Shown in pieces: positions 19,277 to 34,549 of a DNA stretch of 34,549 bases (position 1 is its first letter; each line of letters opens with the position of its first letter). Below the pieces are notes generated by a model that saw nothing but the letters and a program-made list of their open reading frames with translations, did no database searches and was not told where the DNA came from. Position numbers and translations under genes: made by a program. The stretch is taken from positions 1 to 34,549 of the forward strand of contig VAYM01000112.1 of the NCBI GenBank assembly GCA_005884945.1, in the 5' to 3' direction. This DNA is from Actinomycetota bacterium (GTDB lineage: Bacteria; Actinomycetota; Thermoleophilia; Gaiellales; Gaiellaceae).

Positions 19277-19496
19277 CGCCCGGGGCCAGGCCGACGACGA
19301 GCGACGTGACGTGGCGGACCCAGATGCTGGTCTCCTCGAGTCCGACTGCGCTTGCGAGCGCACTCGAGAGCACGCTGTCGCGGCAACGGACGGCGCCGAG
19401 AACCGTGACGATCCACCGGTTCGGATGGTCCTCGCGCTCGACGGTGAGCGGGAGCCCTCCGGGCGTTCTGCCGCGCCAGACCGCGTTCCGTGCCAT
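19227..19496 (-). CDS. small hypothetical protein
   Basis: 89 aa from an ATG at 19496. 'LPLTVEREDHPNRWIVTVLGAVRCRDSVLSSALASAVG' reads as a strand-turn-strand followed by a helix, and it has protein-like composition. The gene fills the gap between the permease and the next plus-strand gene and overlaps the permease end by 50 bases tail-to-tail. No family is recognised. Its start faces the divergent promoter region at 19,521-19,580. Confidence 0.5.
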   Translation of the reverse strand: MARNAVWRGRTPGGLPLTVEREDHPNRWIVTVLGAVRCRDSVLSSALASAVGLEETSIWVRHVTSLVVGLAPGANRSCGERPQGESATQ

Positions 19497-19520
19497 TGCC
19501 GGCGGACCTTCGAGGACCTC

Positions 19521-19580
19521 GCTAACCGGACGCTAACCGCGGTCGGGCTTGAACCTTTCGTTACATGTCCGGCGTACGTT
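19521..19580 (+). promoter_or_regulatory. direct-repeat operator and promoter of the DMFA-like gene
   Basis: GCTAACCG occurs twice with an 11-base period (19521-19528 and 19532-19539), the geometry of OmpR/PhoP-family boxes. Seventeen bases further is TTTCGTTACA (19556-19565), then nine bases, then TACGTT (19575-19580) as a -10. The ATG at 19588 is seven bases downstream, so the transcript may be leaderless. The TTTCGTWACA-N9-TANNNT pattern recurs at 33,500. Confidence 0.5.
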
Positions 19581-19587
19581 CGGAGAC

Positions 19588-21291
19588 ATGGGCATCGCCA
19601 TCGCTGCGATCCTCGCCGCCGGCTCGCTCGCCGCGGGCGCGCCGGCGAACCCGATTCAGGGCGAGAACGCGCTCCCGGGATCGGAGCCGGCGTCGTGGAT
19701 CCAGCCCGCGTACCCGCCGACGGCGATCGAGGGCTGGGCGTCGGAGGTCAGCGTCCTACCCGGGGAGACGGTCCATCTCCACGTCAGCACGGCGAGCGAT
19801 CGCTATCGCGTCGAGATCTACCGCCTCGGCTGGTACGGCGGTCTCGGCGCGCGGCTGGTGGCGTGCATCCCGAGTTGCAGCGGCGAGGAGCAAGGCGAGC
19901 GGTACGGGCGGGAGACCGGCGTCTTTCGCGCCGACTGGCCCGTGACGGACACGTACACCGTTCCCGCGTCGGCGGCGAGCGGCTACTACTACGCGCTCCT
20001 CCGCGACACGAGCCCCGGCGACAACCACGATGCGCGCGGCTGGGTCGTCTTCGTCGTCCGCGAGCCGCCGACGCAGCACTCGCGCATCCTCGTGCAGGTG
20101 CCCGTCAACACATGGCAGGCGTACAATCCGTGGGGCGGGAAGAGCCTCTACCCGTTCAACAGCACGGATCTGGTGCACGCGGTGCGCGTCTCGTTCGATC
20201 GCCCGCTCGCGTACACCGCGCAGGGCCCGTTCGACGCGGAGTACAACCTCGTACGCTTCCTCGAGCGCAACGGGTACGACGTCTCGTACCAGACGGACGT
20301 CGACACGGACGAGCATCCGGAGAGCCTCCTTCAGCACCGCCTCGTAATCGTCGCGGGACATGACGAGTACTGGACGAAGACGATGCGCGACGCGTTCGAC
20401 GCCGCGCGCGACGCGGGCACGAATCTCGCGTTCACAGGATCGAACGCGGCGTACTGGCAGATCCGGTACGAGAACGACCACCGGACGATCGTCGGCTACA
20501 AGGACTACCCCGACCCCGAGCCTGATCCGGCGTTGAAGACGAAGCTCTTCCGCGAGCTCGTGCCGCCGCGGCCGGAGTGCGAGCTGATGGGCGTCATGCA
20601 CATGGGGCTCAGAGAGCACGAGTACGGTCCCGTCGACTACACCGTCTCGCAGGCGGCCGCGACGGACCCGTGGTTCGCGGGCACCGGTTTCGCTCCCGGG
20701 GACAAGGTGCTCGACGTCGTCGGCAACGAATGGGACTCGCTCCCCCGGACGCCGCCGTCGGAGTGCGCGAAGCCGGGGATGACCGTGCTCTTCCAGTACC
20801 ACGGCCAGCCGGTCGACGCGGACGCGATCCGCTACACGGCTCCGTCCGGCGCGCGCGTCTTCGCAGGCGGCGCGCAGCAGCTGTCCTGGCCGCTCGACAC
20901 GTTCAACCTCGGCCGTTTCGGGCGCACGTTGCCGCCGGACACGCGCTTCCAGCAGTTCATGCGGAACGCGCTCGACGACCTGACGCGTCCGGCGTCGCCG
21001 ATCGCCGTGAGCGTGAGGGTCCGGCGTCGAACGACGACGATCGTCGTGCGCGCGCATTCGGATGCCCGGGTCAAGGAATACGACGTCTATCGCCATCCGG
21101 GAGCGCAGTCGTTCGCGCTCGACGCGTCCGATGTTCGGCTCGTGTGCCGAACGACGGGCGCCGCCTGTCGCCAGCGTCGGCTGAAGCCGGGCAGCTACCG
21201 GTTCGCCGCTCTCGCGGTCGACCAGTGGGGAAGCTCCTACCCGACGGTGACGCAGACGATCGTCGTCCGGCGCGCCCGCCGCGCGCGTTAG
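19588..21291 (+). CDS. secreted N,N-dimethylformamidase-beta-C-like protein
   Basis: 567 aa. The start at 19588 is chosen because it begins a signal peptide ('MGIAIAAILAAGSLAAGAPA'); a TTG further upstream is less likely. The bulk matches the DMFA large-subunit C-terminal-like family: 'IEGWASEVSVLPGETVHLHVS', 'YRVEIYRLGWYGGLGARLV', 'YYALLRD', and 'VIVAGHDEYWTKTMRDAFDAARDAGTNLAFTGSNAAYWQIRY'. The C-terminal 100 residues form a Big/fibronectin-like domain. Secreted members of this family are common in soil actinobacteria; hydrolysis of an amide is not demonstrated, and the true amidase active site is not identifiable here. Confidence 0.88.
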   Translation: MGIAIAAILAAGSLAAGAPANPIQGENALPGSEPASWIQPAYPPTAIEGWASEVSVLPGETVHLHVSTASDRYRVEIYRLGWYGGLGARLVACIPSCSGEEQGERYGRETGVFRADWPVTDTYTVPASAASGYYYALLRDTSPGDNHDARGWVVFVVREPPTQHSRILVQVPVNTWQAYNPWGGKSLYPFNSTDLVHAVRVSFDRPLAYTAQGPFDAEYNLVRFLERNGYDVSYQTDVDTDEHPESLLQHRLVIVAGHDEYWTKTMRDAFDAARDAGTNLAFTGSNAAYWQIRYENDHRTIVGYKDYPDPEPDPALKTKLFRELVPPRPECELMGVMHMGLREHEYGPVDYTVSQAAATDPWFAGTGFAPGDKVLDVVGNEWDSLPRTPPSECAKPGMTVLFQYHGQPVDADAIRYTAPSGARVFAGGAQQLSWPLDTFNLGRFGRTLPPDTRFQQFMRNALDDLTRPASPIAVSVRVRRRTTTIVVRAHSDARVKEYDVYRHPGAQSFALDASDVRLVCRTTGAACRQRRLKPGSYRFAALAVDQWGSSYPTVTQTIVVRRARRAR

Positions 21292-22379
21292 CCGATCGCG
21301 TAGACCGCGCGGGCGTTGTCGCGCAGGATCCTCCTGCCGGCGTCGGCCGCGTCGTCTGCGCTCAGCAGCTCGGGCAGCACCTCAGCGAGCCCTTCGCGCC
21401 ACCACTTCGCCGCGAGGTAGTACAGCTCGGGCGTCCGCGCCGCGTCCGATGCATACAGCAGCTTCGAGACGGGTGCGAGCTCGAGCGCCTCGCGCACTGC
21501 TTCGGCCGGACGCGCGACGTGCGGGATCGTCAGCGACAGGTCGAAGTAGACGTTCCCGTAGACGTGCGCGAGCCAGCCTGCCTCGCGGACGAACGGATAG
21601 CAGTGCAGCAGCACGAACGTCGTGTCGCGGAAGCGCTCGATCAGCGGCTTCAGATAGCCCGGATTCACGCGAGGCAGGAACAGGTCGGAGTCGCCGAAAC
21701 CCGCGTGGACCTGCACGGGCAGCGGACTGCCCGTCGCCTCGTTCGCCTCGAGCGCCGCCGTCAGCGTGTACTTGATGCGCATGCCCTCGATCCGATCGGT
21801 GCGCGTCGAGGGAACGAGCGCGTCGAAGTCGAGTCCGCCGCGATAGGCGGCGATCGTCTTCAGCGCGACGAATCCGTTGTCTCGTGCGCCGGAGATCTCG
21901 GCACGGACCCGCTCGAGCCCCGCTTCGCCCGACTCCTCCGCCACGCGCTCGATGCGCATCACCGGCCGCGCTTCGCAGCGCGCGAGCTCGCCGAGCTCGT
22001 CCCAGCTCGTCCCTTCGCCCGCAGGCGGATAGCCGTCGTCGACGAGCAGCAGCTCCGTTCCCGTCGCGCGTAACAGCGTCGACGCGTACTCGGCCGGATC
22101 CGTCGCTTGCCGATGCTCGTAGACCGCCGCTTCCGTCCCGTCGCAGCCGAAGAGCTCCGCCAGCTCGCGGATCGCGCGCCGGTAGGTCACGCCGGTCGCG
22201 ACGTGCGGCCACTGCCGCGGGTCGGAGCTCTCGGAGAAGAGCCCGCGAAACTCGTCGAGCGTCGGCCGTTCCCGCAGGATCCCGTGCGCGTGGTGGTCGA
22301 CGAGCTTGACGCTGTTCAGTACTTCGAGAAGTGGCCCTGCTGCTCGAATACCTCGTCTCCCGCGGAGTAGGTGGCCCAC
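21288..22379 (-). CDS. amidohydrolase-2 family enzyme (FluG N-domain-like)
   Basis: 363 aa from a GTG at 22379, inside the end of the upstream ligase gene. The recognisable domain begins only at 'VKLVDHHAHGIL' (about residue 23), and no better start or Shine-Dalgarno is visible, so the start is uncertain. Metal-site candidates in order are the HxH in 'DHHAHG', a Lys in 'VALKTIAAY', His in 'QVHAGFGDSD', His in 'VLLHCYPFV' and Asp in 'LLYASDAAR', a full TIM-barrel amidohydrolase set. Fusion of this domain to a glutamine-synthetase-like domain is known in the FluG family; here they are neighbouring genes. Likely role: hydrolysis of an amide or decarboxylation of an aromatic acid. Confidence 0.88.
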   Translation of the reverse strand: MGHLLRGRRGIRAAGPLLEVLNSVKLVDHHAHGILRERPTLDEFRGLFSESSDPRQWPHVATGVTYRRAIRELAELFGCDGTEAAVYEHRQATDPAEYASTLLRATGTELLLVDDGYPPAGEGTSWDELGELARCEARPVMRIERVAEESGEAGLERVRAEISGARDNGFVALKTIAAYRGGLDFDALVPSTRTDRIEGMRIKYTLTAALEANEATGSPLPVQVHAGFGDSDLFLPRVNPGYLKPLIERFRDTTFVLLHCYPFVREAGWLAHVYGNVYFDLSLTIPHVARPAEAVREALELAPVSKLLYASDAARTPELYYLAAKWWREGLAEVLPELLSADDAADAGRRILRDNARAVYAIG

Positions 22380-23665
22380 TCGGACCGGCGAACCGCAAGG
22401 TACGACTCTGCCAGGACGGGACCGAGCGCGGCGGTGAGCACGTCGTCCGCTTCGAGCGCGTCGAGCGCCTCTGCCTGCGTCGCCGGCAGCCGCACGATGC
22501 CGCGCTGCTCACGCTCCTCCTCCGGGATCGACGCCGGATCCACCTCGACCGGCTCGGGCGGCTCGAGGCCGTGCTCCAGTCCGTCGAGGCCGGCCGCGAT
22601 CAGTCCGCCGACCGCTACGTACGGGTTCGAGCTCGCGTCGGCGGCCTTCAGCTCGGCGTTCGTGGATGCCTCTTCCATCCCTCGGAACACCGACGGCACG
22701 CGCACCGGTGCCTCGCGGTTGTCGTGTCCCCAGCAGACGAATGCGCCGGCCCAGTACTGCGGGATGATCCGGTGGTACGAGTTGAAGCTCGGCGCCGTCA
22801 GGCCGCACAGGCCGGGCAGGTGCGCGAGCACTCCCGCGATGAACGCGCGCGCGTCCGCGGAGAGCCGGTCGGGCGCGTCGGCGTCGTGGAATCGGTTCCA
22901 GCTCGCGTCCGTGTCCCACAGCGAGAAGTGGATGTGGCAGCCGTTGCCGGCGTTCTCGGGCCACGGCTTCGGCGCGAGCGATGCGACGAGCCCGTGTCTC
23001 GTCGCGATCCCGCGGATCGTCTCGCGCACGAGCAGTTGCTCGTCCGCGGCCTGCAGCGCCGGCCTGTGGGGGGTCGAGATCTCGTGCTGGCCGTGCCCGA
23101 GCTCCGAGTAGTACTGCTCGAGCCCGATCTCCTGCGCGTCGAGTGCCGCGGCGAGGTCGTCGACGTAGTCCTGCGCCGCGGTTGCGCTGATCGTGGAGAA
23201 GCAGAGGCCGGAGTCGATCGGCACGTACTGTCCGTCGACCTGCGTCGCGAGCGAGAACTCGTTCTCGAACGCGACCTCGAGCCGCATCGAGCGCTCGGCG
23301 AGCCGGTCCTCCATCCGCTTGAGGAAGCAACGTTGGCACACCGGTGCGGGCTCGCCGTCGAGCTGCCGGTGGTCGACGAGCATCGCGCCGAGGTGGGGCG
23401 CGTACGGCAGGACGCGGAACGTGTCGGCATCCGGCACGAGCCGCACCTCGCCGACAGGCCCCATTCCCTCCACTGGCTGCAGCTGGTCCAGCGCGTTCAT
23501 CGCCTGCATGGCGACGGTCAGGCCGATGCCGCTCTCGATCCGTCCCTCGAGCCCGCGCACGGAGCTCGCCTTCGCGCGGATCGTTCCATCGTTGCCGCAC
23601 CAGAGAAAGCGGACGAGGCGGAGACCCGCCTCGTCCACCTTCTGTACGACATCGCGTGCTGTCAC
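22316..23665 (-). CDS. glutamine synthetase-family gamma-glutamyl ligase
   Basis: 449 aa, GTG start immediately next to the permease stop. Catalytic-core motifs are in order: 'FENEFSL' (metal Glu), 'SELGHGQHEIS', 'NGCHIHFSLWD' (metal His), 'PSFNSYHRI', 'NREAPVRVP' (substrate Arg) and 'NPYVAVGGLIAAGLDG'. It lacks the adenylylation loop and other signs of housekeeping GlnA and fits the gamma-glutamyl-amine synthetase/FluG-C group that ligates glutamate to an amine. Its product could be the substrate of the M20 peptidase or the amidohydrolase in the same operon. The amine is unknown. Confidence 0.92.
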   Translation of the reverse strand: MTARDVVQKVDEAGLRLVRFLWCGNDGTIRAKASSVRGLEGRIESGIGLTVAMQAMNALDQLQPVEGMGPVGEVRLVPDADTFRVLPYAPHLGAMLVDHRQLDGEPAPVCQRCFLKRMEDRLAERSMRLEVAFENEFSLATQVDGQYVPIDSGLCFSTISATAAQDYVDDLAAALDAQEIGLEQYYSELGHGQHEISTPHRPALQAADEQLLVRETIRGIATRHGLVASLAPKPWPENAGNGCHIHFSLWDTDASWNRFHDADAPDRLSADARAFIAGVLAHLPGLCGLTAPSFNSYHRIIPQYWAGAFVCWGHDNREAPVRVPSVFRGMEEASTNAELKAADASSNPYVAVGGLIAAGLDGLEHGLEPPEPVEVDPASIPEEEREQRGIVRLPATQAEALDALEADDVLTAALGPVLAESYLAVRRSEWATYSAGDEVFEQQGHFSKY

Positions 23666-25132
23666 TTACCCCGCTGGCGTCGGGGTAGGAGTCGGAACCT
23701 CGCGTCGATGCGTGTATTCGCTGATCGAGTAGATCGCGATCGCGACCGCCGCGGACAGCGCGACGATGATCGCGAGCCACACGCGCCAGCTGTGCGTCGT
23801 CCATTGCGTGACCCACGGCGTCTTGAACGTCACCACGGCGCCCACGACGGACGCAGCGATGCCGACGATTCCACTCCCGAGGAGCACCGGCGTCGGCGCA
23901 ACCTTCACTGCCTCGAACTTCTCGGGAAATGCGCGCTTCACGAGGTAGATGTCGGCGAAGAGCAAGACCATCGAGATGCACCAGATTACCGTGACGGCAG
24001 CCTGGAACATCCAGAAGATCTTGTTGGTGTTGTTGCTCCCGAACCACGGGCCGAAGGCGACCACCGTGATCCCAGAAGCGAGCACAGTCTGCAGGATGAT
24101 CGCGTTCACGGGAACGCGCGTCTTCTCGTTCACACGCCCCAGCGCCGTCGGCATCCGCCGCTCGAGGCCGGAGACGAACAGGAGCCGGCTGAACGAGTAG
24201 TTGTAGACGACGGTGTTCGAGACGAAGAACCAGAGCGCGATCAGCGCGATGATCACGGCCCACGTGTGCGAGCCCCAGAACGCGTGCTGGACTGCGACGA
24301 AGATGTCGGAGAGACCTCCCGTGCTCTTCGAGGCGGGCAGGTTCATCATCGTCCCGAACGTCGCCCAGAGATATCCGATCATCACGACAATCGAACCCCA
24401 GAACAGGTACTTCTTGATCGCCCGCAGGTCAACGATCTCAACGCCCATGTTCAACGGTACCTCGATGCCGAGGAGCGCCAGAATGACGAGGCCGAACAGT
24501 GTCCAGGTCCCAGAGTGCAGTGACCAGTTGCTGGCAGTGCCGAAGCCGCCGGTCGCCGAGTGGCCGTCGCCGATCAACCAAAGAATCCCGGCCAGGCCGA
24601 TGACGAAGATCGCCGCGCCGTAGAAGACCACTGCCACGTTCGCGTAGTTCTGCGTCATCCGCAGCCGGAGCAGCGAGATGACGGCCGAGAACCAGAGGAC
24701 GGCGAGGATCACGAGCCCCTGCTCCCAGTTCTTCGGCAACCCGCCCGTGTCGATGAACTGCCAGATCGTCACGACGGCGTCGCCGGTTGCGGCCATCACG
24801 AGAATTCCCGGCCACCAGGCGCAGAAGCCGGCGAAGAAGCCCCAGAACGGACCGAGCGCCTTCTGGGTCCAGACGTAGAGCGATCCCTCCTGCGGGAACA
24901 TCAGCCCGAGCTGCGCCGTCACGAGCGCCCCGGGGATCAGGAAGGCGAGGAAGCCAAGGATCCAGTACGTGTACGCGGCTGGGCCGGCGCGCTGGATCGC
25001 CGAGGCGTTCACGATGAAGAGGACGATCGCGACGAAGATGATCGTCATGTCCGCGGAATTAAGGACCCGCGGCAACATGCCGGGCGCGATCCGCTCGGAG
25101 ATCATCACGCGTTCGTCCGCCTGGGAAGCCAT
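23666..25132 (-). CDS. APC-superfamily amino acid/polyamine permease
   Basis: 488 aa with about 12 hydrophobic helices, for instance 'MTIIFVAIVLFIVNASAI', 'ILGFLAFLIPGALVTAQLGLMFPQEGSLYVW' and 'WPGILVMAATGDAV'. The early 'PGALVTAQLGLMFPQEGSLYVWTQKALG' segment is the usual APC substrate-binding region. The start at 25132 is taken because GGAGG lies seven bases before it; a GTG two codons earlier is weaker. Uptake of an amino acid or polyamine into a pathway with the ligase and amidohydrolase is the natural reading. Confidence 0.93.
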   Translation of the reverse strand: MASQADERVMISERIAPGMLPRVLNSADMTIIFVAIVLFIVNASAIQRAGPAAYTYWILGFLAFLIPGALVTAQLGLMFPQEGSLYVWTQKALGPFWGFFAGFCAWWPGILVMAATGDAVVTIWQFIDTGGLPKNWEQGLVILAVLWFSAVISLLRLRMTQNYANVAVVFYGAAIFVIGLAGILWLIGDGHSATGGFGTASNWSLHSGTWTLFGLVILALLGIEVPLNMGVEIVDLRAIKKYLFWGSIVVMIGYLWATFGTMMNLPASKSTGGLSDIFVAVQHAFWGSHTWAVIIALIALWFFVSNTVVYNYSFSRLLFVSGLERRMPTALGRVNEKTRVPVNAIILQTVLASGITVVAFGPWFGSNNTNKIFWMFQAAVTVIWCISMVLLFADIYLVKRAFPEKFEAVKVAPTPVLLGSGIVGIAASVVGAVVTFKTPWVTQWTTHSWRVWLAIIVALSAAVAIAIYSISEYTHRREVPTPTPTPAG

Positions 25133-25172
25133 AACCACCTCCAGGGTCGATGCGGTTGACGCGATTGTCGCT

Positions 25173-26237
25173 TTAGACGCCCGGGTTACGCAAGAGCCGC
25201 GACAGGAGCTGCGCGCGAACCGGTAACGACGGAAGCACGACGTGCTCGTCGGGAGCGTGCGCGCCGCCGCCCTCTGCGCCGAGGCCGTCGAGCACCGGAA
25301 CGCCGACCGCGCCGAGGAGGTTCCCGTCGGACCCGCCGCCGGACGACTCCTCGTCGAGCTCGAGCCCGAGCTCGCGCCCGTACGTCCGCGCCTGCTCGAA
25401 GAGGCGGCCGGCTCCCTCCGAGCGCTCGAGGGGCGGTCGCGTCCAGCCGCCGCCGAGCTCGAGCTTCGCCTCGGGATGCACCGGTTCGAGCTTCGCCAGC
25501 GCGCGCTCGATCTCGTCTCGATCCGCCATGGTCGCGACGCGCACGTCGACTCGCGCCTGCGCTTCGGCGGCGACGACGTTCTCGGACGTCCCGCCGCTGA
25601 CGACGCCGACGTTGAGCGTCGTCCCGCGCTCGGGGTCGTTCAGCGCGTTCAGCGCGTGGATCTGGTGCGCGAGCTCGTCGATCGCGCTCACGCCCTTGTG
25701 CCGGTGCGTGCCGGCGTGCGCAGGCCGGCCGTGAATCGTCAGACGGAATCGCCCGAGACCCTTCCGCGACGTCTTCAGCTTCCCGCTCGACCCCGGCGGC
25801 TCGACGACGAGCGCGGCGGCGACGCCGTCGGCCGCGGCTTCGAGCAGCGGCCGCGCAGTCGGGCTCCCCATCTCCTCGTCGGCGGTGAGGAACACGCGCA
25901 GCGTGCGCCGCTCGGCGCCGGCGAGGCGGATCGCTTCGACGAGCACGACGAGGCAGGACTTCATGTCGTACACGCCCGGGCCGAAGGCGTGGTCGCCGTC
26001 GACGCGGAACGGCATCGACTCGAGCGTCCCGACCGGCCAGACCGTGTCGGTGTGGCCGACGACGAGGAGAGGCTCGCCGGATCCGCCGAGCTCGGCGCGG
26101 AGGTGGTCGCCGTCGAGCATCGAGACGTTCGCGCCGAGCGTCGCGAGCTCGCTTCCCATGCGATCGGCGACGGCGCGGACGCCCGGCGTGTACGTCGGCG
26201 ACTCGATCTCGACGAGCTCGCGGAGCAGCTCGAGCAT
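25173..26237 (-). CDS. M20-family metallopeptidase (carboxypeptidase G2-like)
   Basis: 354 aa. Metal ligands in order: His in 'VVGHTDTVWP', Asp in 'GVYDMK', Glu-Glu in 'TADEEMGSP', Glu in 'LVVEPPG', and His in 'HAPDEHV' near the C-terminus. The lid domain has 'HGRPAHAGTHRHKGVSAIDELAHQI'. The whole set resembles glutamate carboxypeptidases, which release a C-terminal or gamma-linked glutamate. It is the first gene of the operon with permease, ligase and amidohydrolase, about 40 bases before the permease start. Confidence 0.93.
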   Translation of the reverse strand: MLELLRELVEIESPTYTPGVRAVADRMGSELATLGANVSMLDGDHLRAELGGSGEPLLVVGHTDTVWPVGTLESMPFRVDGDHAFGPGVYDMKSCLVVLVEAIRLAGAERRTLRVFLTADEEMGSPTARPLLEAAADGVAAALVVEPPGSSGKLKTSRKGLGRFRLTIHGRPAHAGTHRHKGVSAIDELAHQIHALNALNDPERGTTLNVGVVSGGTSENVVAAEAQARVDVRVATMADRDEIERALAKLEPVHPEAKLELGGGWTRPPLERSEGAGRLFEQARTYGRELGLELDEESSGGGSDGNLLGAVGVPVLDGLGAEGGGAHAPDEHVVLPSLPVRAQLLSRLLRNPGV

Positions 26238-26250
26238 GGCCGCAGCTTAA

Positions 26251-26302
26251 GGCGCCGCTTGCGGCGCCGGCCTCAGGACGCGTGGGCTTCGCCCATGCGT
26301 CC
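26251..26302 (-). terminator. tandem hairpins between the two minus-strand operons
   Basis: Two stems: GGCGCCGC-TT-GCGGCGCC (26251-26268) and a 12-bp stem with one G-T pair and a TTC loop (26276-26302). Both lie downstream of the lipoprotein gene that stops at 26350 and just upstream of the M20 gene. On the minus strand the second stem is read first and the other is followed by TTAAG. They probably end the lipoprotein transcript, though the T-tracts are weak. Confidence 0.6.
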
Positions 26303-26349
26303 GTCTGAAATGACCGGCCGACACGTTCGAGCTGTCACGTTAGACGCCG

Positions 26350-27825
26350 TTACGGGGTGATCGTCTTCGAGCGCGCCAGCTCGCGGCCGGTCGCGTCCAG
26401 CGCGACGACCGCGATGTGCTTCGCCTTGCGTGCCAGCGGCAGCGCGTTCTCGAAGTGCGTCTTGGAGATCGTCAGACCCGGCTGCCCGTCGAGCTCGAGC
26501 TGCCAGCGTGCGACGTCGGTGGCGCCGTTCCAGCTGACGAAGACCTTGTTGCCGCGAATCGCGATCGCAGGCTTGTCCGTCGGATGCCCGTGCCAGACGA
26601 AGCGATACGCGCGGTACGAGTCCGCGTCCTGGTTCGGCTTCGTGATCCGCGCCAGTCCTTTGCCGAAGCTGAGGTCGAGCACGACGCGGCCGCTCGCGTC
26701 GAACTCCGTCACGAACGGTACCGCGCCCCAGCCGACGAACACGTGGCCGTCGGGCAGGAACTGCGCGTTGCCCTCGAACGGCACGAGCAGCCGCTTCGGG
26801 TGGTGGTAGCTCCGCACGAGCGTTGCGCGCTTCGTCTTCGGGTCGGCGTGGAGGACGAGGATGCGGGTGAACTTCTCGGCGGGTGGGGCGGCGCCGTTGT
26901 CGAAGAGCGTGAGCGTCCCGTTCGGGTGCAGCCGAGCGTCGTGCTGCCATTCGAAGTTCGTCCCGTGGCCCATCCTGAAGTCGCTCTTCTTGCCGCCGAG
27001 TCGCCAGAGGATCTTTCCCGTCTTCCCGTCGATCTCGTAGACCGCGTGCGTGTTTCGCGCCGAGATGACGTAGTTGCCGTTCGGCTCGAGCTCGACGGAG
27101 TTGAGGTGGAAGTAGTCGTAGGGCGGCGCCTTCTTCCCCTTCGCGGGCGGCTTCGGCGCAGGGGCGTAGGACTCCTCGAGGCCGATCGCGGGCCAGCTAT
27201 GCCATTCGAAGAGCACGCGGCCCGTCTTGATGTTCACCTCTTGGAAGATCCCGTCGAAGATGCGGCCGTCCTTCGGGCCACCGACGGGCGTGAGGTCGAC
27301 GTGCAGCTGGTGGTAGATCGGGAAGAGCGCCGTGTTCCGGCGCGTGATCACGAAGTCGTGGATGTCGCCGGCGTAGCCGTGTCCGGCGCGCACCTGCGCG
27401 ATCTGGTGGTACGTGTCGTCGTAGATCACGTAACGGCCGATGCCGACGCCCATCGGCGCCTGGCCTCGCCACCACGTGAGCACCGGCTTCCCGTTGTACC
27501 GCTGCACGCGGAAGTCGCTGACGCCGTGCGTGTCGAGCGGATGGAACCACACGACCTGGCCGTTGTCGTCGAGGATCATCGGGCCCGCCTGGACGACCTT
27601 CATCTTCGGAGCGAGGAAGATGTACCCGGGGGCCGTCTGCGCGTCGGTCAACACGCGTACGGGCGGCGGCTTCAGATCCGGGCGCGAGAGGAAGTGCTGC
27701 GTCGGCGGCGGTGGGCCGGCGGGCTTCTTCGGCGCTGCGGACTTCTCCGATTTGCTGCTGCAGCCTGCGGCCAGCACCGCCAGCGCGACGAAGGCCGGCG
27801 CGAGGCGGTTCACGCGCGGGAGCAT
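26350..27825 (-). CDS. arylsulfotransferase-like (ASST) lipoprotein, copy 1
   Basis: 491 aa. Lipoprotein signal with lipobox 'VLAAGC' and a Pro/Lys-rich linker. The repeat-containing body carries 'RPDLKPPPVRVL', 'GYIFLAPKMKVVQAGPMILDDNGQVVWFHPL', 'ARNTHAVYEIDGKTGKILWRLGG' and 'FEWQHDARLHPNGTLTLFDNG', the hallmark of the arylsulfotransferase beta-propeller family. It is predicted to be anchored outside the cytoplasmic membrane. Most members have no proven substrate, and a sulfotransfer role should not be assumed. It has a tandem paralogue nine bases upstream. Confidence 0.88.
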   Translation of the reverse strand: MLPRVNRLAPAFVALAVLAAGCSSKSEKSAAPKKPAGPPPPTQHFLSRPDLKPPPVRVLTDAQTAPGYIFLAPKMKVVQAGPMILDDNGQVVWFHPLDTHGVSDFRVQRYNGKPVLTWWRGQAPMGVGIGRYVIYDDTYHQIAQVRAGHGYAGDIHDFVITRRNTALFPIYHQLHVDLTPVGGPKDGRIFDGIFQEVNIKTGRVLFEWHSWPAIGLEESYAPAPKPPAKGKKAPPYDYFHLNSVELEPNGNYVISARNTHAVYEIDGKTGKILWRLGGKKSDFRMGHGTNFEWQHDARLHPNGTLTLFDNGAAPPAEKFTRILVLHADPKTKRATLVRSYHHPKRLLVPFEGNAQFLPDGHVFVGWGAVPFVTEFDASGRVVLDLSFGKGLARITKPNQDADSYRAYRFVWHGHPTDKPAIAIRGNKVFVSWNGATDVARWQLELDGQPGLTISKTHFENALPLARKAKHIAVVALDATGRELARSKTITP

Positions 27826-27834
27826 AATCAGCCG

Positions 27835-29190
27835 TCAGTGCACGCTGACGGGAAATGACGTTCCGAGGACGCGGCCGCGGGCAGCGAGCGCCTCGACCGC
27901 GACTCGCCCGGCGTGGGGCGGGAGAGCGATCGCCGTCTCGAATCCCGTTCTCGGAACGGTGCGCCGGGCGCCGACGAGCCGCCACGCGGCGACCGCCGTC
28001 GCGCCGTTCCAGCTGACGTACGCCGTTCCGTGGTCGACCGCGACGGCCGGCCGATCGAGCGGCTTCCCGGTCCAGCGGAAACGGAAGGCGCGATACGAGT
28101 CGGCGCCGCGTCCGAAGCGGAGGTCCAAGAGCGTCCGGCCGTAGGCGTCGAACTCCGTCACGAACGGCTGGTGCCCCCAGCCGACGAGGAAGTGGCCGTC
28201 CGGGAGCAGTTGCGCGTTGCCCTGGTCGACTGCGACGAGTGGCGGCAGGTGCGTGAAGCTCCGGACGAGCGTCGCGCGTCGCCGGCGCAGGTCGAGGCGG
28301 AGGACGATCGCGCGTGACTGCGGTCCGACGCGCGGCGCGGCCTCGTTGTCGAAGAGCGAGATCGCCCCGTCGGGCAGGCGCCGCGCGTCGTGCTGCCACG
28401 CGAACCTCGCCCCGGGCCCGAACGTGAAGTCGCTCCGCTTGCCGCCGAGCCGCCAGATGATCCGGCCGGTCCGGCGGTCGATCTTGTAGACGGTGTGCGT
28501 GTTCCGCGCCGACACGAGCAGGTTGCCGTCGGTGTCGACGTCGATCGAGTTCACGTGGAAGTAGTCGTACGGGATCGACGTCTTCTTCGGCCGTGGCTCG
28601 TACGACTCGTCGAGCGCGACGTGGCCGAGGCTGTGCCACTCGAAGAGGACGCGACCGCTCGGGACGTCGACCTCCTGGAGCGCCCCCTCGAAGACGAGCG
28701 CGCCGTGGACGCGGACGCGATGGAAGATCGTCATCAGCGCCGTGTTGCGCTTCGTGATCAGAAACTCGTGGATGTCCCCGATGAGCCCGTTCCCCGGCCG
28801 AACGCGCGCGACCTGCCGGTACGACGTGTCGACGATCGCGTAGTTGCCGTCCCCTTTTCCGTTCGTCGGCCGGCCGCGCCACCACGTCAGCACCGGCTTG
28901 CCGCGGTAGCGCTGGACGCGGAAGTCGGTGACGCCGCGCGTGTCGAGTGGGCGGAACCAGACGACGTGCCCGCGGTTGTCGAGGATCAGCGGGCCCGCCT
29001 GAGCCACGTGCTTCTTCGGAGCGATGAAGACGAACCCGGGTGCGGTGTCGTGAGCAGGAACGAGGACATCGACCGGAGGAGGCTTCAGGTCCGGGCGTGA
29101 ACGAAAGTGCTGGTACGGCGGCGGGGTCCCGTGCGAGCCGCAGCCGGACGCGGCGACCGCGACCGCTGCAAGTGCGAGCGCGTGTTTCAA
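27835..29190 (-). CDS. arylsulfotransferase-like (ASST) lipoprotein, copy 2
   Basis: 451 aa, TTG start ('MKHALAL'), lipobox 'VAASGC'. Its body is colinear with the downstream copy ('SRPDLKPPPVDVL', 'GPLILDNRGHVVWFRPLDTRGVTDFRVQRY', 'TLVRSFTHL'), so the two arose by tandem duplication, with clear divergence since. The TTG start is chosen because it opens a typical lipoprotein head; no Shine-Dalgarno is visible. Its first base pair (29190) is shared with the divergent acyl-CoA ligase pseudogene's ATG, so there is no intergenic space for a promoter. Confidence 0.85.
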   Translation of the reverse strand: MKHALALAAVAVAASGCGSHGTPPPYQHFRSRPDLKPPPVDVLVPAHDTAPGFVFIAPKKHVAQAGPLILDNRGHVVWFRPLDTRGVTDFRVQRYRGKPVLTWWRGRPTNGKGDGNYAIVDTSYRQVARVRPGNGLIGDIHEFLITKRNTALMTIFHRVRVHGALVFEGALQEVDVPSGRVLFEWHSLGHVALDESYEPRPKKTSIPYDYFHVNSIDVDTDGNLLVSARNTHTVYKIDRRTGRIIWRLGGKRSDFTFGPGARFAWQHDARRLPDGAISLFDNEAAPRVGPQSRAIVLRLDLRRRRATLVRSFTHLPPLVAVDQGNAQLLPDGHFLVGWGHQPFVTEFDAYGRTLLDLRFGRGADSYRAFRFRWTGKPLDRPAVAVDHGTAYVSWNGATAVAAWRLVGARRTVPRTGFETAIALPPHAGRVAVEALAARGRVLGTSFPVSVH

Positions 29191-30711
29191 TGAGCAGAGT
29201 GGTCTATCGCAGCCCGCTTCCGGACGTCGAGATCCCGGACGTTTCGCTTACGACCTTCGTCCTCGAGCGGGCGTTCGAGCACCGGGACAGAGCGGCGCTC
29301 GTCGAAGTGCCGACCTCCAGGACGGTGACGTACGGCGACCTCGTGGACGGCATTCGTTGCTTCGCAGCCGGTCTGTCGCGACGCGGGTTTCGGAAGGGCG
29401 ACGCGCTGACGATCTACTCGCCGAATCTCCCTGAGTACGCGATCGCGTTCCACGGCGTCGCGTCGGCGGGCGGCGCCGTTCATCCGGCGAATCCGCTGTT
29501 GACGGCGAACGAGCTGCGCTTCCAGCTCTCCGACTGAGAAAGCGCGTGAGGCTGTCGAGGGAACCCCGGTCGAAGACGTCTTCGTGATCGGCGAGCGTTC
29601 GTTCGCATCGCTGCTCGAGTCGGAAGGAGAGCCTCCGACGGTCTCGATCGATCCGGCGGAAGACGTCGTGGCGCTTCCGTACTCGAGTGGGACGACGGGC
29701 GGCTGCAAGGGTGTGATGCTCACGCACCGCAACCTTGTGGCGAACATCTGCCAGCTCGGTGCGCACCTGGGCGCGGACGAGCAGACGGTGGCACTCGGTG
29801 TACTCCCGTTCTTCCACATCTACGGACTCGTGGTCGTGCTCAACAACACGTTGCGCGCGGGGGGCACGGTCGTGACGATGCCGCGTTTCGACCTCGAGGG
29901 CATGCTCGGAGCGATCGAGGAGCACGGGATCACGCACGCGTTCGTCGTGCCTCCGATCGTCCTCGCGCTCGCGCGACACCCCGCCGTGGAGGAGCACGAC
30001 CTCGGCTCGCTCTCGTTCGTCATGTCGGGAGCCGCCCCGCTCGGGGCAGATCTCGAGCAGGAGTGCATCGACCGCCTCGGGTGCAAGTTCCGGCAGGGCT
30101 ACGGCCTGACGGAGACGAGTCCAGTCACGCACATGGTCCCGCACGTGGCCGGCGCGGAGCGACTCGGGAGCGTCGGGCCGCCGATTCCGAACAGCGAGGT
30201 CAAGATCGTCGATCCGGCCACCGGCGAGCCCGTTGGGCCGGGCGGGCGCGGCGAGGTCTGGGTCCGCGGGCCGCACGTCATGAAGGGCTACCTCGCGAAC
30301 GAGGCCGCGACCGCGATCACGGTCGACGCCGACGGCTGGCTGCACACCGGCGACATCGGGCTCGCCGACGAGGAGGGTTACCTCACCGTCGTCGACCGGC
30401 TGAAGGAGCTGATCAAGGTCAAGGGCTACCAGGTCGCGCCGGCCGAGCTCGAGGCGGTGCTGCTCACGCACCCGGCGGTCGCGGACGCGGCTGTGGTGCC
30501 GAGCCCGGACGAGGAGGCAGGCGAGGTCCCGACGGCATATGTCGCGCTGCGGGCCGAGTGCGACGCGGACGACATCGTCGCGTTCGTGTCCGAGCGGGTG
30601 GCACCGTACAAGCGGATCAGACGGTGCGAGATCGTCGATGAGATCCCGAAGTCGGCTTCGGGCAAGATCCTCCGCCGCGTCCTCGTGGAGCAGGAACGCG
30701 CACGGGTCTAG
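29190..30711 (+). pseudogene. 4CL-like AMP-dependent acyl-CoA ligase, frameshifted
   Basis: The N-terminal frame (29190-29537, 115 aa) has the family start 'VEIPDVSLTTFVLERA' and reaches 'NELRFQLSD' before a TGA. The continuation is in another frame from 29536 ('EKAREAVEGTPVEDVFVIGERSF') to 30711, with box I 'YSSGTTGGCKGVMLTHRN', 'RQGYGLTETSP', 'DGWLHTGDIG' and the C-terminal Lys motif 'PKSASGKILRRVL'. The residues that normally join the two parts are missing, so the break looks like a short deletion not divisible by three, about 29535. A plain sequencing or assembly error is the alternative. Such enzymes activate aryl or fatty acids as CoA thioesters. Confidence 0.85.
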
Positions 30712-30744
30712 GGACCCCCGGGCGCGCTCACACGTATTCGCCGC

Positions 30745-31579
30745 ATGAACCGACGTGAGTTCGTCGTCGCCGCGGCAACCCTCGCGTTCGCACCGCGGGC
30801 GTTCGCGAGCGTCGGCTCACGCGTCGCCCTCGTGACCGCGGATCTCGAAGCGCGCCTCGTCGTCGTCGACCTCCCGAGTGGCCGCATCCGGGGGCACATC
30901 CGAACGCTTCCCTACCCGCGGAGCATCGAGACCGTCGGCAGCGTCGCGGTCGTCGCGCATTCGGACATCGGCGCGGTGAGCATCGTCGACGGACGAACCC
31001 TGAGGGTGAAACACGTGCTGCGCGGCTTCGGCGAGCCGAGATACACGGCCGGACATCCCGACCGACGCCACGCGTACGTCACCGACGCCGGGCGCGGCGA
31101 GGTGGCGGCGATCGACGTCCTGCGCGGCCGCGTCCTGCACCGGGAACCAGTCGGCGCGCTCGCACGGCACATCACGATCAACCCGTCAGGACGGACGCTC
31201 TGGATCGCGCTGGGCTCGAGGGCGAAGGAGCTCGCACTGGTCGACGTGTCCCTGCGTGCGCGCCCGCGCCTCCTCCGGCACTTCCGGCCGGACTTCCTTG
31301 CACACGACGTCGGTGTCGCACCAGACGGCCGTCATGTCTGGGTCACGTCGGGCGACCGCGACGAGCTGCGCTTCCGTACTCGAGTGGGACGACGGGCGGC
31401 CGCTGTCGCGCACCGTCGTGCCGGTCGGCTCCTACAACGTGCAGCACGCGGACGGCTGGGTGCTGACGCCGTCGCTCGGACACGGCGACCTCTGCATCCT
31501 CGACGACGAGGGCCGGGTGCTACGCAGCGAGAAGGTCGCGCGGTCGTCTCACGACGCCTGCGTCGTGACCGCCGCCTGA
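30745..31579 (+). pseudogene. Tat-exported YVTN-type beta-propeller protein, frameshifted
   Basis: The N-terminus 'MNRREFVVAAATLAFAPRAFA' is a twin-arginine signal. Propeller blades follow in frame 1: 'SVAVVAHSDIGAVSIVDG', 'AYVTDAGRGEVAAIDVLRGR' and 'VGVAPDGRHVWVTSGDRDEL'. Near 31,360-31,376 the coding sense passes to frame 2 ('VLEWDDGRPLSRTVVPVGSYNVQHADGW', ending 'SSHDACVVTAA' at 31579). A frameshift, possibly with loss of part of a blade, separates the halves. The 3' end overlaps the convergent aldolase gene by 31 bases. Its intact form would be a secreted repeat protein of unknown ligand. Confidence 0.8.
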
Positions 31580-32595
31580 AGCGACTTGCCGACGGAGCCG
31601 AGCTCCTGGCAGGCCTGCACGACGCGGGCGGCCATCGACTCCTCCGCCTTCTTCATCCACGCGCGCGGGTCGTACGCCTTCTTGTCGCCGACGCCGCCGT
31701 CGACCTTCAGGACCTCGCCGTAGTTGCGGAAGATGTGGTCTGCGGCGCCGCGCGTGTACGTGTACTGCATGTCGGTGTCGACGTTCATCTTCACGACGCC
31801 GTGGCGGAGCGCCTCGGAGATCTGCGCCTGGGTCGACCCGCTGCCGCCGTGGAACACGTAGTTGAACGCCGCCGCATCGCCGTATCGCTCGACGACCGCC
31901 TCCTTCAGGTCCCCGAGCACTTCCGGGCGGAGCTTCGTGTTGACGTCCGCGTAGACGCCGTGGACGTTGCCGAACGTGGCCGCGAGCATGTAGCGCCCGT
32001 CGGAGTAGCCGAGCGCCTCGATCGTCGCGAGCGCGTCTTCAGGCGTCGAGTAGAGCGCGGTCTCCGCGGCGCCGGTGTGATCCAGTCCGTCCTCCTCGCC
32101 GCCGACGAGGCCGATCTCGACCTCGAGGATGATGTCGACGTCGTTGCACCGTTCCAGGTACTCGCGTGAGAGGCTCAGGTTCTCGGCGCGCGGGAGCGAC
32201 GACCCGTCGAACATGTGCGAGTTGAAGAGCGGCCCCTCGCCGCGCTCCTTCCGTCGCTCGGACTCGTCGATCAGCGGGTTGAGGAAGTTGCCCGCCTCGG
32301 GCGGCGTGCAGTGGTCCGTGTGCAGCGCGATCAGCACCGGATACTTCTCGCCGACGACGTGCGCGAACTCGGCCATCGCGCGCGCGCCGGCCGCCATGTC
32401 GGCGATCGAGCCGGACGCGAACTTCGCGCCGCCTGTCGTCATCTGCACGATCCCGTCCGATCCGGCCTCGGCGTACCCGCGCATCGCCGCGTTGAGCGTG
32501 CTGGACGAGGTGACGTTGACGGCCGGGTATGCGTAGCCGCCGGCCCGCGCGCGCGAGAGCATCTCTGCGTACTGCTCCGGTGTCGCGATCGGCAT
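31549..32595 (-). CDS. class II fructose-bisphosphate aldolase
   Basis: 348 aa from 'MPIATPEQYAEML' at 32595, the usual family start; a TTG seven codons earlier is unlikely. Zinc ligands: His in 'LHTDHCTPPE', His in 'FGNVHGVYA' and His in 'YVFHGGSGS'. The phosphate-binding 'VFHGGSGSTQAQ' and 'KMNVDTDMQYTYTRG' are typical of the FbaA-type class IIA enzyme, which cleaves fructose-1,6-bisphosphate in glycolysis and gluconeogenesis. TATTCT lies about ten bases before the ATG and could be a -10 of a near-leaderless transcript. Confidence 0.95.
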   Translation of the reverse strand: MPIATPEQYAEMLSRARAGGYAYPAVNVTSSSTLNAAMRGYAEAGSDGIVQMTTGGAKFASGSIADMAAGARAMAEFAHVVGEKYPVLIALHTDHCTPPEAGNFLNPLIDESERRKERGEGPLFNSHMFDGSSLPRAENLSLSREYLERCNDVDIILEVEIGLVGGEEDGLDHTGAAETALYSTPEDALATIEALGYSDGRYMLAATFGNVHGVYADVNTKLRPEVLGDLKEAVVERYGDAAAFNYVFHGGSGSTQAQISEALRHGVVKMNVDTDMQYTYTRGAADHIFRNYGEVLKVDGGVGDKKAYDPRAWMKKAEESMAARVVQACQELGSVGKSLQAAVTTQAS

Positions 32596-32646
32596 CTCGC
32601 GCCGAGAATACGACAATGCGAGCCGGCGGCATAGACCGCAGTTCGG

Positions 32647-33117
32647 TTACATCTGCCCGCTGAGCCAGGGGTCGGCGCCGGGATCGCCGCCGGCAGCTGC
32701 GATCGCGAGGCGCGCGAAGTAGTGATCCCACCCGTGTGCGTGCGACTCGACGTTCTTCGCATCGGGCAGGTCCTTGTGCGTGAAGCGAAGCAACGTACCG
32801 TCGCCGTCGGCGACGAGCTCGATCTCGATCGTGCTCGAGCCCGGCGGAACCGGCCGCTCGCCTTCCTCGCCGGGCTCCCAGCCCCACGTCTGCACGAGCC
32901 GGTGCGGCGGGTCGAGCTCGACGAACTCGCCACGCGCGGTATGGCCCGGGATCACCTCGACGCGATAGACGCCGCCGGGACGCGGGTCGAGCGTTGCGGC
33001 CTGCCCCATCCAGCGCGTCGCCTTCTCCGGATCGACGAGGAACTGCCAGATCGTCTCGGGGCTCGCGTCGATCTCGATCTCGCGAACCAGAGACGTGGTC
33101 TCAGTTGCGCTTTCCAT
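32647..33117 (-). CDS. AHSA1/SRPBCC-family protein
   Basis: 156 aa. 'LVREIEIDASPETIWQFLVDPEKATRWMG' and 'VELDPPHRLVQTWGWE' followed by 'FTHKDLPDAKNVESHAHGWDHYFARL' are the activator of Hsp90 ATPase homologue 1 (START-like) pattern. It has a lipid/hydrophobic-ligand binding fold with no obvious catalytic residues. Its start overlaps the ArsR-type gene by 17 bases, so the two are one transcript. ArsR-AHSA1 pairs are common in actinobacteria, and the regulator is presumed to control this gene. Confidence 0.93.
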   Translation of the reverse strand: MESATETTSLVREIEIDASPETIWQFLVDPEKATRWMGQAATLDPRPGGVYRVEVIPGHTARGEFVELDPPHRLVQTWGWEPGEEGERPVPPGSSTIEIELVADGDGTLLRFTHKDLPDAKNVESHAHGWDHYFARLAIAAAGGDPGADPWLSGQM

Positions 33118-33421
33118 GCTTCTTCCTCTCCTCTCGTTCGGCCTCGCGCTTGAGCGCGTCGAGGCGGTCGCCCCAGAAATCGTCGAGGAACGCCTTCAAC
33201 TCGGCGAGGCCTTCCGGCCGCGCCCGGTAGAGGCGCCTCGTGCCGTTGCGTCGTTCGTCCACGAGCCCGGCCTCCTTCAGGACTTTCAGGTGCTGCGAGA
33301 CGGCGGGCTGCGTCACGTCGAAGTGCGACGCGATCTCGCCTGCCGAGAGCTCGGCATCCCAGACGAGCCGCAGCATCCGGCGCCGGTTGGGTTCTGCGAT
33401 CGCCTTGAGTGCCGTCTCCAC
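33101..33421 (-). CDS. ArsR-family regulator of the AHSA1 pair
   Basis: 106 aa, GTG start. The winged helix 'LSAGEIASHFDVTQPAVSQHLKVLKEAGLVDERRNGTRRLYRA' takes up residues 25-67. It has no cysteine, so it is not a classical metal sensor. The rest is an Arg/Lys/Glu-rich C-terminal helix ('LDALKREAEREERKK'). The start is supported by a promoter whose predicted transcription start falls at the GTG, with no Shine-Dalgarno sequence. It overlaps the AHSA1 gene by 17 bases. It is likely an autorepressor acting on the AT-rich repeats in its own promoter. Confidence 0.93.
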   Translation of the reverse strand: METALKAIAEPNRRRMLRLVWDAELSAGEIASHFDVTQPAVSQHLKVLKEAGLVDERRNGTRRLYRARPEGLAELKAFLDDFWGDRLDALKREAEREERKKHGKRN

Positions 33422-33426
33422 GACGC

Positions 33427-33465
33427 ATACTTAAGCAGATACTTATTTAAGTGTCAACTTAAAGT
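33427..33465 (-). promoter_or_regulatory. promoter and operator of the ArsR-AHSA1 operon
   Basis: On the minus strand TTGACA (33457 to 33452) and TAAGTA (33433 to 33428) are 18 bases apart, and the GTG at 33421 stands about seven bases after the -10, so the mRNA is probably leaderless. Inside the promoter is ACTTA-TT-TAAGT (33441-33452), ATACTTA is directly repeated (33427 and 33439), and AACTTAAAGT overlaps the -35 side. This AT-rich patch stands out in very GC-rich DNA and is a good ArsR binding site. Confidence 0.75.
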
Positions 33466-33499
33466 CGCACCCCTGAAAACGCGAACTTTGTGCTGATCG

Positions 33500-33546
33500 T
33501 TTCGTAACACGCTCGTCCTAGCGTCGCCGGTTAGCTGGCGATTAGC
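33500..33546 (+). promoter_or_regulatory. promoter with GGTTAGC/GATTAGC direct repeat
   Basis: TTTCGTAACA (33500-33509), nine bases, then TAGCGT (33519-33524) as a -10. Just downstream GGTTAGC and GATTAGC (33529 and 33540) repeat with an 11-base period. Its reverse complement is 14/18 identical to the GCTAACC repeat at 19,521-19,538, and the same TTTCGTWACA-N9-TANNNT pattern is shared. The following gene starts 71 bases after the -10. Confidence 0.45.
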
Positions 33547-33595
33547 ACTCGATGCGAACTTCCGCTCGAGCGCTCGAAGACGAAGGGAGACGGAG

Positions 33596-34549
33596 ATGTT
33601 GCGGTGCGCATTCGGCATCGGGGTCGTTGCGGCTGTCGTTCTTGGTATCTGGACAGCCGGGGCGGGCGCGGAGCCACCGGCGCCGGCGATCGTGACCGGC
33701 CTCGATGCCGGTTGGCCGGACGTGCACGGCTGGGACGCTTACGGCACTCAGGCGCGGCAGTGGGCGGACTGGGGCGAGTGGCCGCTTGCGTTCTCGCCGT
33801 ATCCGACGTACCAGCAAGGTGTGCGCGTCGCGATCGGCGACGTGAACGGCGACGGGCGCAACGAGATCGTGACCGCGCCCGGCACCTCCGCCTTCACGGA
33901 GTTGAAGGTCTTCGACGGACGCTCGTTCAGCCGGTTGGGCACGTTGCTGCCGTTCAAGGACGCGGCGTGGTACAACGGCGCGTTCGTCGCAACGGGCGAT
34001 ACGAACGGGGACGGGCGCGCCGAGGTGATCGATGGGCTCGACAGCGGCTGTTGCACGACGCTGCACGTGCTCGATGCGTTGAGCGGCGCAGACATGTCCG
34101 GATTCTTCCCGTACGGCGATCAGAGCCAGGTCGGCGCACGTGTCGCCGCCGCCGACGTGAACGGCGACGGCAAGGCCGAGATACTCGCCGTGGCAAAAGG
34201 AACGGGACGCGTCAACGTCTTCTCATCGTCGGGCGGTGCCGCCTTCCGCACGATCGACGCCTTCGGCTCGGAAGCGACGGGCGGTGCGTCGATTGCTGCC
34301 GGGAACCTCGTCGGCGACGCGCATCCTGACATCGTCGCGGCAGCGTCGACCGCGTCGGGTGCACAGGTGAAGATCATCGACGTCGGCAGCGGCGCAACAC
34401 GCGCGTCATTCTTTCCGTACGGCTCCATTCCAGTGTCGTCGCTCGAGGTCGCACTCGGCGACGTGGACGGGAACGGCAGCGAGGAGATCGTCCTCAGCGC
34501 CGCGACTCCGGGCGGAACCGAGGTGAAGGCGATCGAGGCGTCGGGGAGC
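33596..34549 (+). CDS. secreted FG-GAP/VCBS repeat protein, 3' end outside window
   Basis: The frame is open from the ATG to the edge of the window, 318 codons. A signal peptide ('MLRCAFGIGVVAAVVLGIW', then TAGAGA) is followed by FG-GAP-type repeats with calcium-loop motifs: 'GDVNGDGRNEIVTA', 'GDTNGDGRAEVIDG', 'ADVNGDGKAEILAV', a degenerate 'GNLVGDAHPDIVAA', and 'GDVDGNGSEEIVLS'. These are spaced like blades of a beta-propeller, as in integrin-alpha-like proteins. GGGAGACGGAG precedes the ATG. It is likely extracellular and calcium-binding; ligand and C-terminal anchor are not seen. Confidence 0.9.
   Translation, partial: MLRCAFGIGVVAAVVLGIWTAGAGAEPPAPAIVTGLDAGWPDVHGWDAYGTQARQWADWGEWPLAFSPYPTYQQGVRVAIGDVNGDGRNEIVTAPGTSAFTELKVFDGRSFSRLGTLLPFKDAAWYNGAFVATGDTNGDGRAEVIDGLDSGCCTTLHVLDALSGADMSGFFPYGDQSQVGARVAAADVNGDGKAEILAVAKGTGRVNVFSSSGGAAFRTIDAFGSEATGGASIAAGNLVGDAHPDIVAAASTASGAQVKIIDVGSGATRASFFPYGSIPVSSLEVALGDVDGNGSEEIVLSAATPGGTEVKAIEASGS

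Follow-up and report, generated by a model that had tools for sequence, protein, structure and literature searches.

Contig VAYM01000112.1 of an Actinomycetota bacterium (assembly GCA_005884945.1; Thermoleophilia, Gaiellales, Gaiellaceae), analysed here from position 1 to position 34,549 (the window), carries two related direct repeats about 14 kb apart, each close to a gene for a secreted-looking protein. The repeats resemble a single type of genetic switch present twice, with a promoter built into each copy, and judging from their sequence they are probably the operators at which one type of SARP-family activator would act, each forming part of its own promoter. The grounds for this reading are the sequence anatomy of the sites, their enrichment, the fixed register of their elements, their linkage to one SARP group and a related arrangement found across the order. 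The window contains the following features around the two sites.

19227–19496, minus strand: open reading frame (ORF) of 89 amino acids with coding-like codon-position G+C, its ATG 9 nt past GAAGGT; probable target of the adjacent box
19506–19511, minus strand: −10-like GAAGGT (presumed role), 10 bp past the box and pointing left
19521–19538: repeat GCTAACCGGACGCTAACC, as quoted by the initial annotation
19522–19538, minus strand: SARP-type box GGTTAG-CGTCC-GGTTAG, two half-sites with an 11-bp period, an exact match to the box family
19556–19580, plus strand: separate putative promoter element TTTCGTTACA-N9-TACGTT
19588–21291, plus strand: gene for a secreted-looking DMFA2_C protein (PF20254, 300 bits), its ATG 7 nt past TACGTT
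33500–33524, plus strand: separate putative promoter element TTTCGTAACA-N9-TAGCGT, partly kept before the homologous gene in a same-genus genome, G004 (L087)
33529–33545, plus strand: SARP-type box GGTTAG-CTGGC-GATTAG, an exact match to the box family
33529–33546: repeat, GCTAATCGCCAGCTAACC in reverse complement
33556–33561, plus strand: −10-like GAACTT (presumed role), 10 bp past the box and pointing right
33596–34549, plus strand: gene for an FG-GAP repeat protein with a signal-like N-terminus, its ATG 34 nt past GAACTT, running off the window

Re-reading the sequence confirmed that the two repeats are identical at 14 of their 18 positions and have a period of 11 bases. With up to one mismatch, the 18-mer had five matches in the whole genome of the source organism (G000; 2.86 Mb in 198 contigs) and none for the reversed pattern, which served as the background control in these searches; the two sites are related, as initially annotated, and specific. 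A looser version of the word, at up to two mismatches, was weakly enriched (41 matches versus 28 controls). The strand did not hold up: the true reading appears to lie on the complement of the quoted strand, where the repeat becomes GGTTAG-N5-GRTTAG followed by GANNNT 10 bp downstream. Activation at one site and repression at the other had been proposed from the position of the repeats; this is not supported, since a −10-like GANNNT accompanies each repeat and the arrangement can be explained without repression.

The register of this element is fixed. The core GGTTAG-N5-GGTTAG was found 11 times in the source genome at up to one mismatch (three controls), including six exact copies, and four more exact copies occurred in 20 relatives (one control match). 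All ten exact copies in these 21 genomes have GANNNT at +10, a hexamer that was absent from the query, and because of this position each repeat is best viewed as a putative operator with its own promoter. The full element, GRTTAG-N5-GRTTAG-N10-GANNNT, had 22 exact matches in 129 genomes of the order and none for the reversed pattern; 21 of them lie in seven of the ten same-genus genomes, nine being in the source genome, and one in the other 119 genomes. Allowing two mismatches, the ten same-genus genomes yielded 29 matches against two controls. All 22 exact copies have the direct repeats with an 11-bp period expected of a SARP-dependent promoter. An ORF of at least 55 amino acids starts 6–9 nt past GANNNT in six of them, and the first listed start lies 23 to 199 nt away in the remaining 16 (at L053, the first listed frames are possibly not the gene); the short distances would fit leaderless transcripts. 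The probability that random scatter would place at least two of the nine exact boxes in such a window is near 0.006, a post hoc estimate.

Within the genus, the boxes are linked to one group of SARPs. Nine of the 29 sites matched at up to two mismatches have a SARP start at most 1.5 kb away (the start of one such gene, G009:C141, had been placed too far downstream). Of 53 BTAD rows from the ten genomes, 48 were extracted (five weak rows were skipped) and 44 entered the tree, four being omitted as mis-framed or truncated; L110, which was kept, has a long branch and is probably mis-framed. The six box-adjoining SARPs all fall into one group of seven (support 91/88), a clustering matched by none of 500 label shuffles, with bootstrap values that had not settled. 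One half of the group consists of SARP-SIR2_2 fusions (four scanned), and two scanned members of the other half carry guanylate-cyclase and AAA domains. The recognition helix starts with SL[QH]N in six of the seven rows, the seventh being mis-framed there; outsiders mostly have TLQV, MIQI or VLQN. SIR2_2 was detected in four genomes of the genus, in one copy each and always within a SARP fusion, and three of these fusion genes have a box 102–103 nt ahead of their start, which suggests that the gene may be positively autoregulated. Most of the exact genus boxes (17 of 21) are in these four genomes; the other four are in G001, G003 and G005, and G002, G004 and G007 have none. The likely regulator, as far as sequence can tell, is a SARP of this group. 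The first choice would be the 525-residue product of G000:C175, a SARP-SIR2 fusion with a box before its own gene and the SARP-family layout of Trans_reg_C (residues 24–87) followed by BTAD (residues 95–233); the alternative would be the protein encoded on G000:C39, with SARP, Guanylate_cyc and AAA domains.

Other conserved words were seen upstream of SARP genes. Members of both halves of the group (L091, L092, L095, L096, L113 and L142) have GTG[TC]TACAA 6–7 nt ahead of the start codon, perhaps as a basal promoter. In another clade (L097, L098, L118 and L128), GCTGAA-N5-GCTGAA stands 47–58 nt before the start with a −10-like element at +10, and a third (L108, L111, L116 and L127) has divergent 11-bp-phased repeats, GTGG-like with a last GTTAC, and GATNNT at +10; the word may be particular to each SARP lineage.

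Besides SARP-SIR2 itself, the genes that follow boxes in the genus encode a PD40 propeller, a BNR/sortilin propeller, a PKD protein, a DMFA2_C protein, an amidohydrolase and a DUF2339 membrane protein, and many of the products have signal-like N-termini, as judged by eye. A conserved protein of 64 amino acids lies behind a GRTTAG box in three genomes (L056, L057 and L068); the one member scanned had no Pfam match.

A related arrangement extends across the order, where SIR2_2 matches were found in 31 of the 129 genomes. Every SARP-SIR2 gene read adjoins a divergent gene with a secreted-looking product. At all of the first eight loci, the DNA ahead of the divergent gene shows four NGTTRG-like hexamers in 11-bp phase, some of them degenerate, and then N10, GACSGT, N6-7 and ATG, an arrangement first spotted by eye and afterwards listed by script. 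A set of 26 order loci comprised 14 with a recognised SARP start, of which four repeat earlier loci (L169, L170, L171 and L178) and ten are new, and 12 others; among the latter, L177 and L181 have a cyclase-like stretch ahead of the SARP and their own upstream DNA was not reached, L190 proved negative for the repeats when scanned afterwards, L172, L173 and L176 have a SIR2-model match without a SARP match, and six further loci matched neither model. All 14 scored loci have three or four NGTTRG-like repeats in register with GANNNT at +10 and an ATG 6–7 nt on, and each outscored 200 of 200 shuffles. Repeat scores inside the SARP group were 16–17 for the fusions and 9, 12 and 14 for the cyclase half; as a control, 39 SARP rows not belonging to the group, several of them possibly affected by mis-framing, were scored as well: 35 reached at most 10, and the four at 14–16 belong to one outside clade with another word. 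The pattern GTTRG-N6-GTTRG-N10-GANNNT-N6-ATG had five matches and no controls in the 129 genomes, and its three matches outside the genus are the boxes of L185–L187. Among 17 divergent proteins scanned, 12 matched DMFA2_C and five M23 (two of these below the Pfam cut-off). The SARP-SIR2 relatives come from metagenome-assembled genomes (MAGs) of Actinobacteria and one MAG of Thermoleophilia.

The layout resembles the afs box of Streptomyces coelicolor, where two 11-bp direct repeats likewise cover the −35 region, AfsR protomers bind them side by side from −40 to −19, contacting the first 8 bp of each repeat and engaging sigma region 4, and the −10 and −35 elements are both poor (PMC10936776). 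Placing GANNNT at −12 to −7 puts one GRTTAG word at −39 to −34 and the other at −28 to −23, both within the AfsR contact zones. The spacing between the GRTTAG word and GANNNT is fixed at 10 bp, and comes to 8 bp only if the repeat is counted 2 bp longer; in SARP-dependent promoters, 8 bp separate the 3′ repeat from the −10 element (PMC10936776). If the system works as AfsR does, the promoter would consist of a pair of GRTTAG half-sites with an 11-bp period, followed after a 10-bp spacer by GANNNT as a poor −10; two SARP protomers would sit side by side over its −35 region, engage sigma region 4 and so recruit RNA polymerase to what is a weak promoter. Binding, activation, transcription starts, the acting paralogue and any ligand of the SIR2 domain are all features of this model that we infer. 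It differs from AfsR in its word (GRTTAG), in the SIR2-like domain that replaces the NOD and TPR domains, and in targets that look secreted or membrane-bound rather than being antibiotic-cluster genes. PimR, which requires two repeats of 11-bp units for binding (PMC5930380) and joins a SARP to a cyclase-like and LAL-like half, as in the C39 protein (PMC5930380; PMC3367932), represents a second known type, from which the present system is set apart by another word, other targets and an uncultured, non-Streptomyces host.

Several observations weigh against a SARP operator of this kind. The exact GRTTAG word is nearly limited to the genus, and the sole exact box outside it, L147, has no SARP match within its 3 kb. 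No GRTTAG box was found within two mismatches at the SARP-SIR2 loci L153, L154, L157 and L158, where the repeats are NGTTRG-like; for this reason, the doubled GRTTAG word of the window appears to be the genus version of a broader NGTTRG theme. The SARP-SIR2 gene of G006 is not itself preceded by a box of this kind, and a SARP-SIR2 gene of another family (G021, L190) lacks a phased box. No SARP of the box-linked group was found in G001, G003 and G005, genomes that are 88, 71 and 77% complete and hold four exact boxes. The register alone would also suit activators of the PhoB type. Finally, either of the two paralogues could act. That the C39 protein rather than SARP-SIR2 serves the boxes of the window, a variant of the same explanation, is possible yet doubtful: the C39 gene has three exact boxes at most 1.5 kb away, and its product belongs to the same SARP group and shares the recognition-helix stretch SLQN-[FYT]-[IV]S, but G008 has three exact boxes and no cyclase-half gene among its SARP rows, and it does have a SARP-SIR2 gene with a box before it.

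A SARP would account for what held of the earlier assignment to an OmpR/PhoP-type regulator. PhoB/PhoP-type response regulators have an OmpR-type winged helix and bind 11-bp repeats, and PhoB-type boxes too lie near the −10 element. The winged-helix part of the assignment stands, as SARPs carry Pfam Trans_reg_C, and 11-bp direct repeats suit both families alike. The assignment to a PhoP/OmpR response regulator, activating one gene and repressing the other, does not fit as well and was set back once the SARP linkage emerged: the box-adjoining genes encode SARPs, with nine of 29 sites next to SARP genes of one group (response regulators themselves were not searched for), like phased repeats precede the gene divergent from SARP-SIR2 at 14 of 14 scored loci, and each repeat has a −10-like element of its own. 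The scanned box-linked proteins contain BTAD and gave no receiver-domain match, in a survey that included no dedicated response-regulator search. We consider such a regulator unlikely; an MtrA box was a further candidate that came under consideration.

The SARP-type box is accompanied in the window by TTTCGTWACA-N9-TANNNT, found as initially described at both loci (two window matches, none in 100 shuffles). The proposal that these elements look like promoters was supported. At up to one mismatch, the source genome had four matches and no reversed control, with an ATG 7–9 nt on in three and 71 nt on for the window copy at 33.5 kb. A form shorter by one base had six exact matches in the genus, all at most 71 nt before ORF starts; at up to one mismatch, this form was not enriched in the genus (18 matches versus 19 controls). 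Five of its matches (three exact) precede one conserved gene in five genomes (L077, L078, L079, L081 and L082), which has an MPRFLPVGKD-like N-terminus and a putative promoter of the form TTTCGTAAC-N10-TANNNT; the one member scanned had no Pfam match. By eye, a TGAWC-like word stands at a fixed spacing before several copies of the TTTC element. We rejected TTTCGTWACA as a −35 element of a sigma factor, including the extracytoplasmic function (ECF) class, since it ends 9 bp before TANNNT (near −32 to −23), which is too close, and no known promoter class matched. On sequence, the TTTC element is best taken as a second promoter element, separate from the box, which would act independently. Fusing the two into one composite control element of the downstream secreted gene has in its favour that both window genes have the two features within about 35 bp; it is nevertheless very improbable, as the 19.5-kb box faces in the direction opposite to the DMFA2_C gene and other TTTC copies, in the source genome (L008 and L009) and in relatives, have no GRTTAG box among the genus matches. 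A chance origin, which the weak enrichment of the loose repeat alone might suggest, is refuted for the box family by the counts of the full exact element (22 versus 0) and the invariant GANNNT (10 of 10), and has practically no likelihood for the window copies, both exact members.

With box and TTTC element taken as separate promoters, the two SARP-type boxes of the window would have different roles. The 19.5-kb box is predicted to be a divergent promoter directed away from the DMFA2_C gene that drives the 89-residue ORF, which had no match in Pfam or NCBIfam. The 33.5-kb box is predicted to be a second promoter, in tandem with the TTTC promoter, and would place the secreted-looking FG-GAP gene under additional, regulated control. 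The FG-GAP homologue in G004 (68.5% over 286 amino acids) retains TTTCCTTACA-N9-TAACGT with an ATG 8 nt on, and G004 has neither an exact box nor a SIR2_2 match; because the TTTC promoter is kept there without the box, the box promoter looks like an addition to an older one, judging from this one pair. Upstream of the FG-GAP gene, an ArsR-family regulator gene (33101–33421, minus strand) adjoins an AHSA1-like protein gene (32647–33117, minus strand), and the region shared by the ArsR and FG-GAP genes contains several ACTTAA/TTAAGT words near 33429–33464, seen by eye and perhaps an ArsR operator. Elsewhere in the window, a row of glutamine synthetase-like, amino-acid permease and M20 peptidase genes occupies 22316–26237 (minus strand).

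The aligned SARP-SIR2 family matches AfsR (E = 3e-63) and EmbR (5e-56), and its C-terminal domain has weak similarity to SIR2 NADases (PDB E values of 1.7e-5 to 6e-3) and matches the PADLOC ThsA models (3.5e-10 and 5.2e-14). The likeness to the SIR2 NADases of defence systems (ThsA, KomC and DSR2) is thus weak, and here, unlike in those proteins, the domain is fused to a transcription activator. An active SIR2 NADase needs the GAG loop and the catalytic asparagine and histidine. None of the eight aligned SARP-SIR2 proteins has the GAG loop, and seven lack the asparagine of TTN(Y/F)D; the KxHG-type histidine is kept in seven. As the catalytic signature is mostly lost, the SIR2 half would more likely serve in sensing than in catalysis. 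The SIR2 part of the cyclase-fused L177 retains GAG, TTNYD and AHG. In the predicted SARP-SIR2 structure, the SARP half is confident and the SIR2 half mostly has a predicted local distance difference test (pLDDT) score below 60. A search of titles and abstract openings, with subscription papers not covered, found no publication on a SARP-SIR2 fusion or such a box.

In Streptomyces, SARPs have mainly become known for activating antibiotic clusters; the SARP-type box described here, which has a word of its own, appears to govern secreted and membrane proteins in soil actinobacteria that are uncultured. The recurrent SARP-SIR2 fusion and its divergent partner name a candidate regulator, operator and target, and the box gives a readable promoter signature for MAGs. 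In a speculative picture that we hold to be rather unlikely, a SARP with a mostly signature-less SIR2 domain would sense a nucleotide derived from nicotinamide adenine dinucleotide (NAD) and switch on the divergent DMFA2_C or M23 gene along with secreted proteins across the genus, including those of the window, in one soil Thermoleophilia-like family. If true, the SARP-SIR2 module would make the cell surface responsive to nucleotide or infection state.

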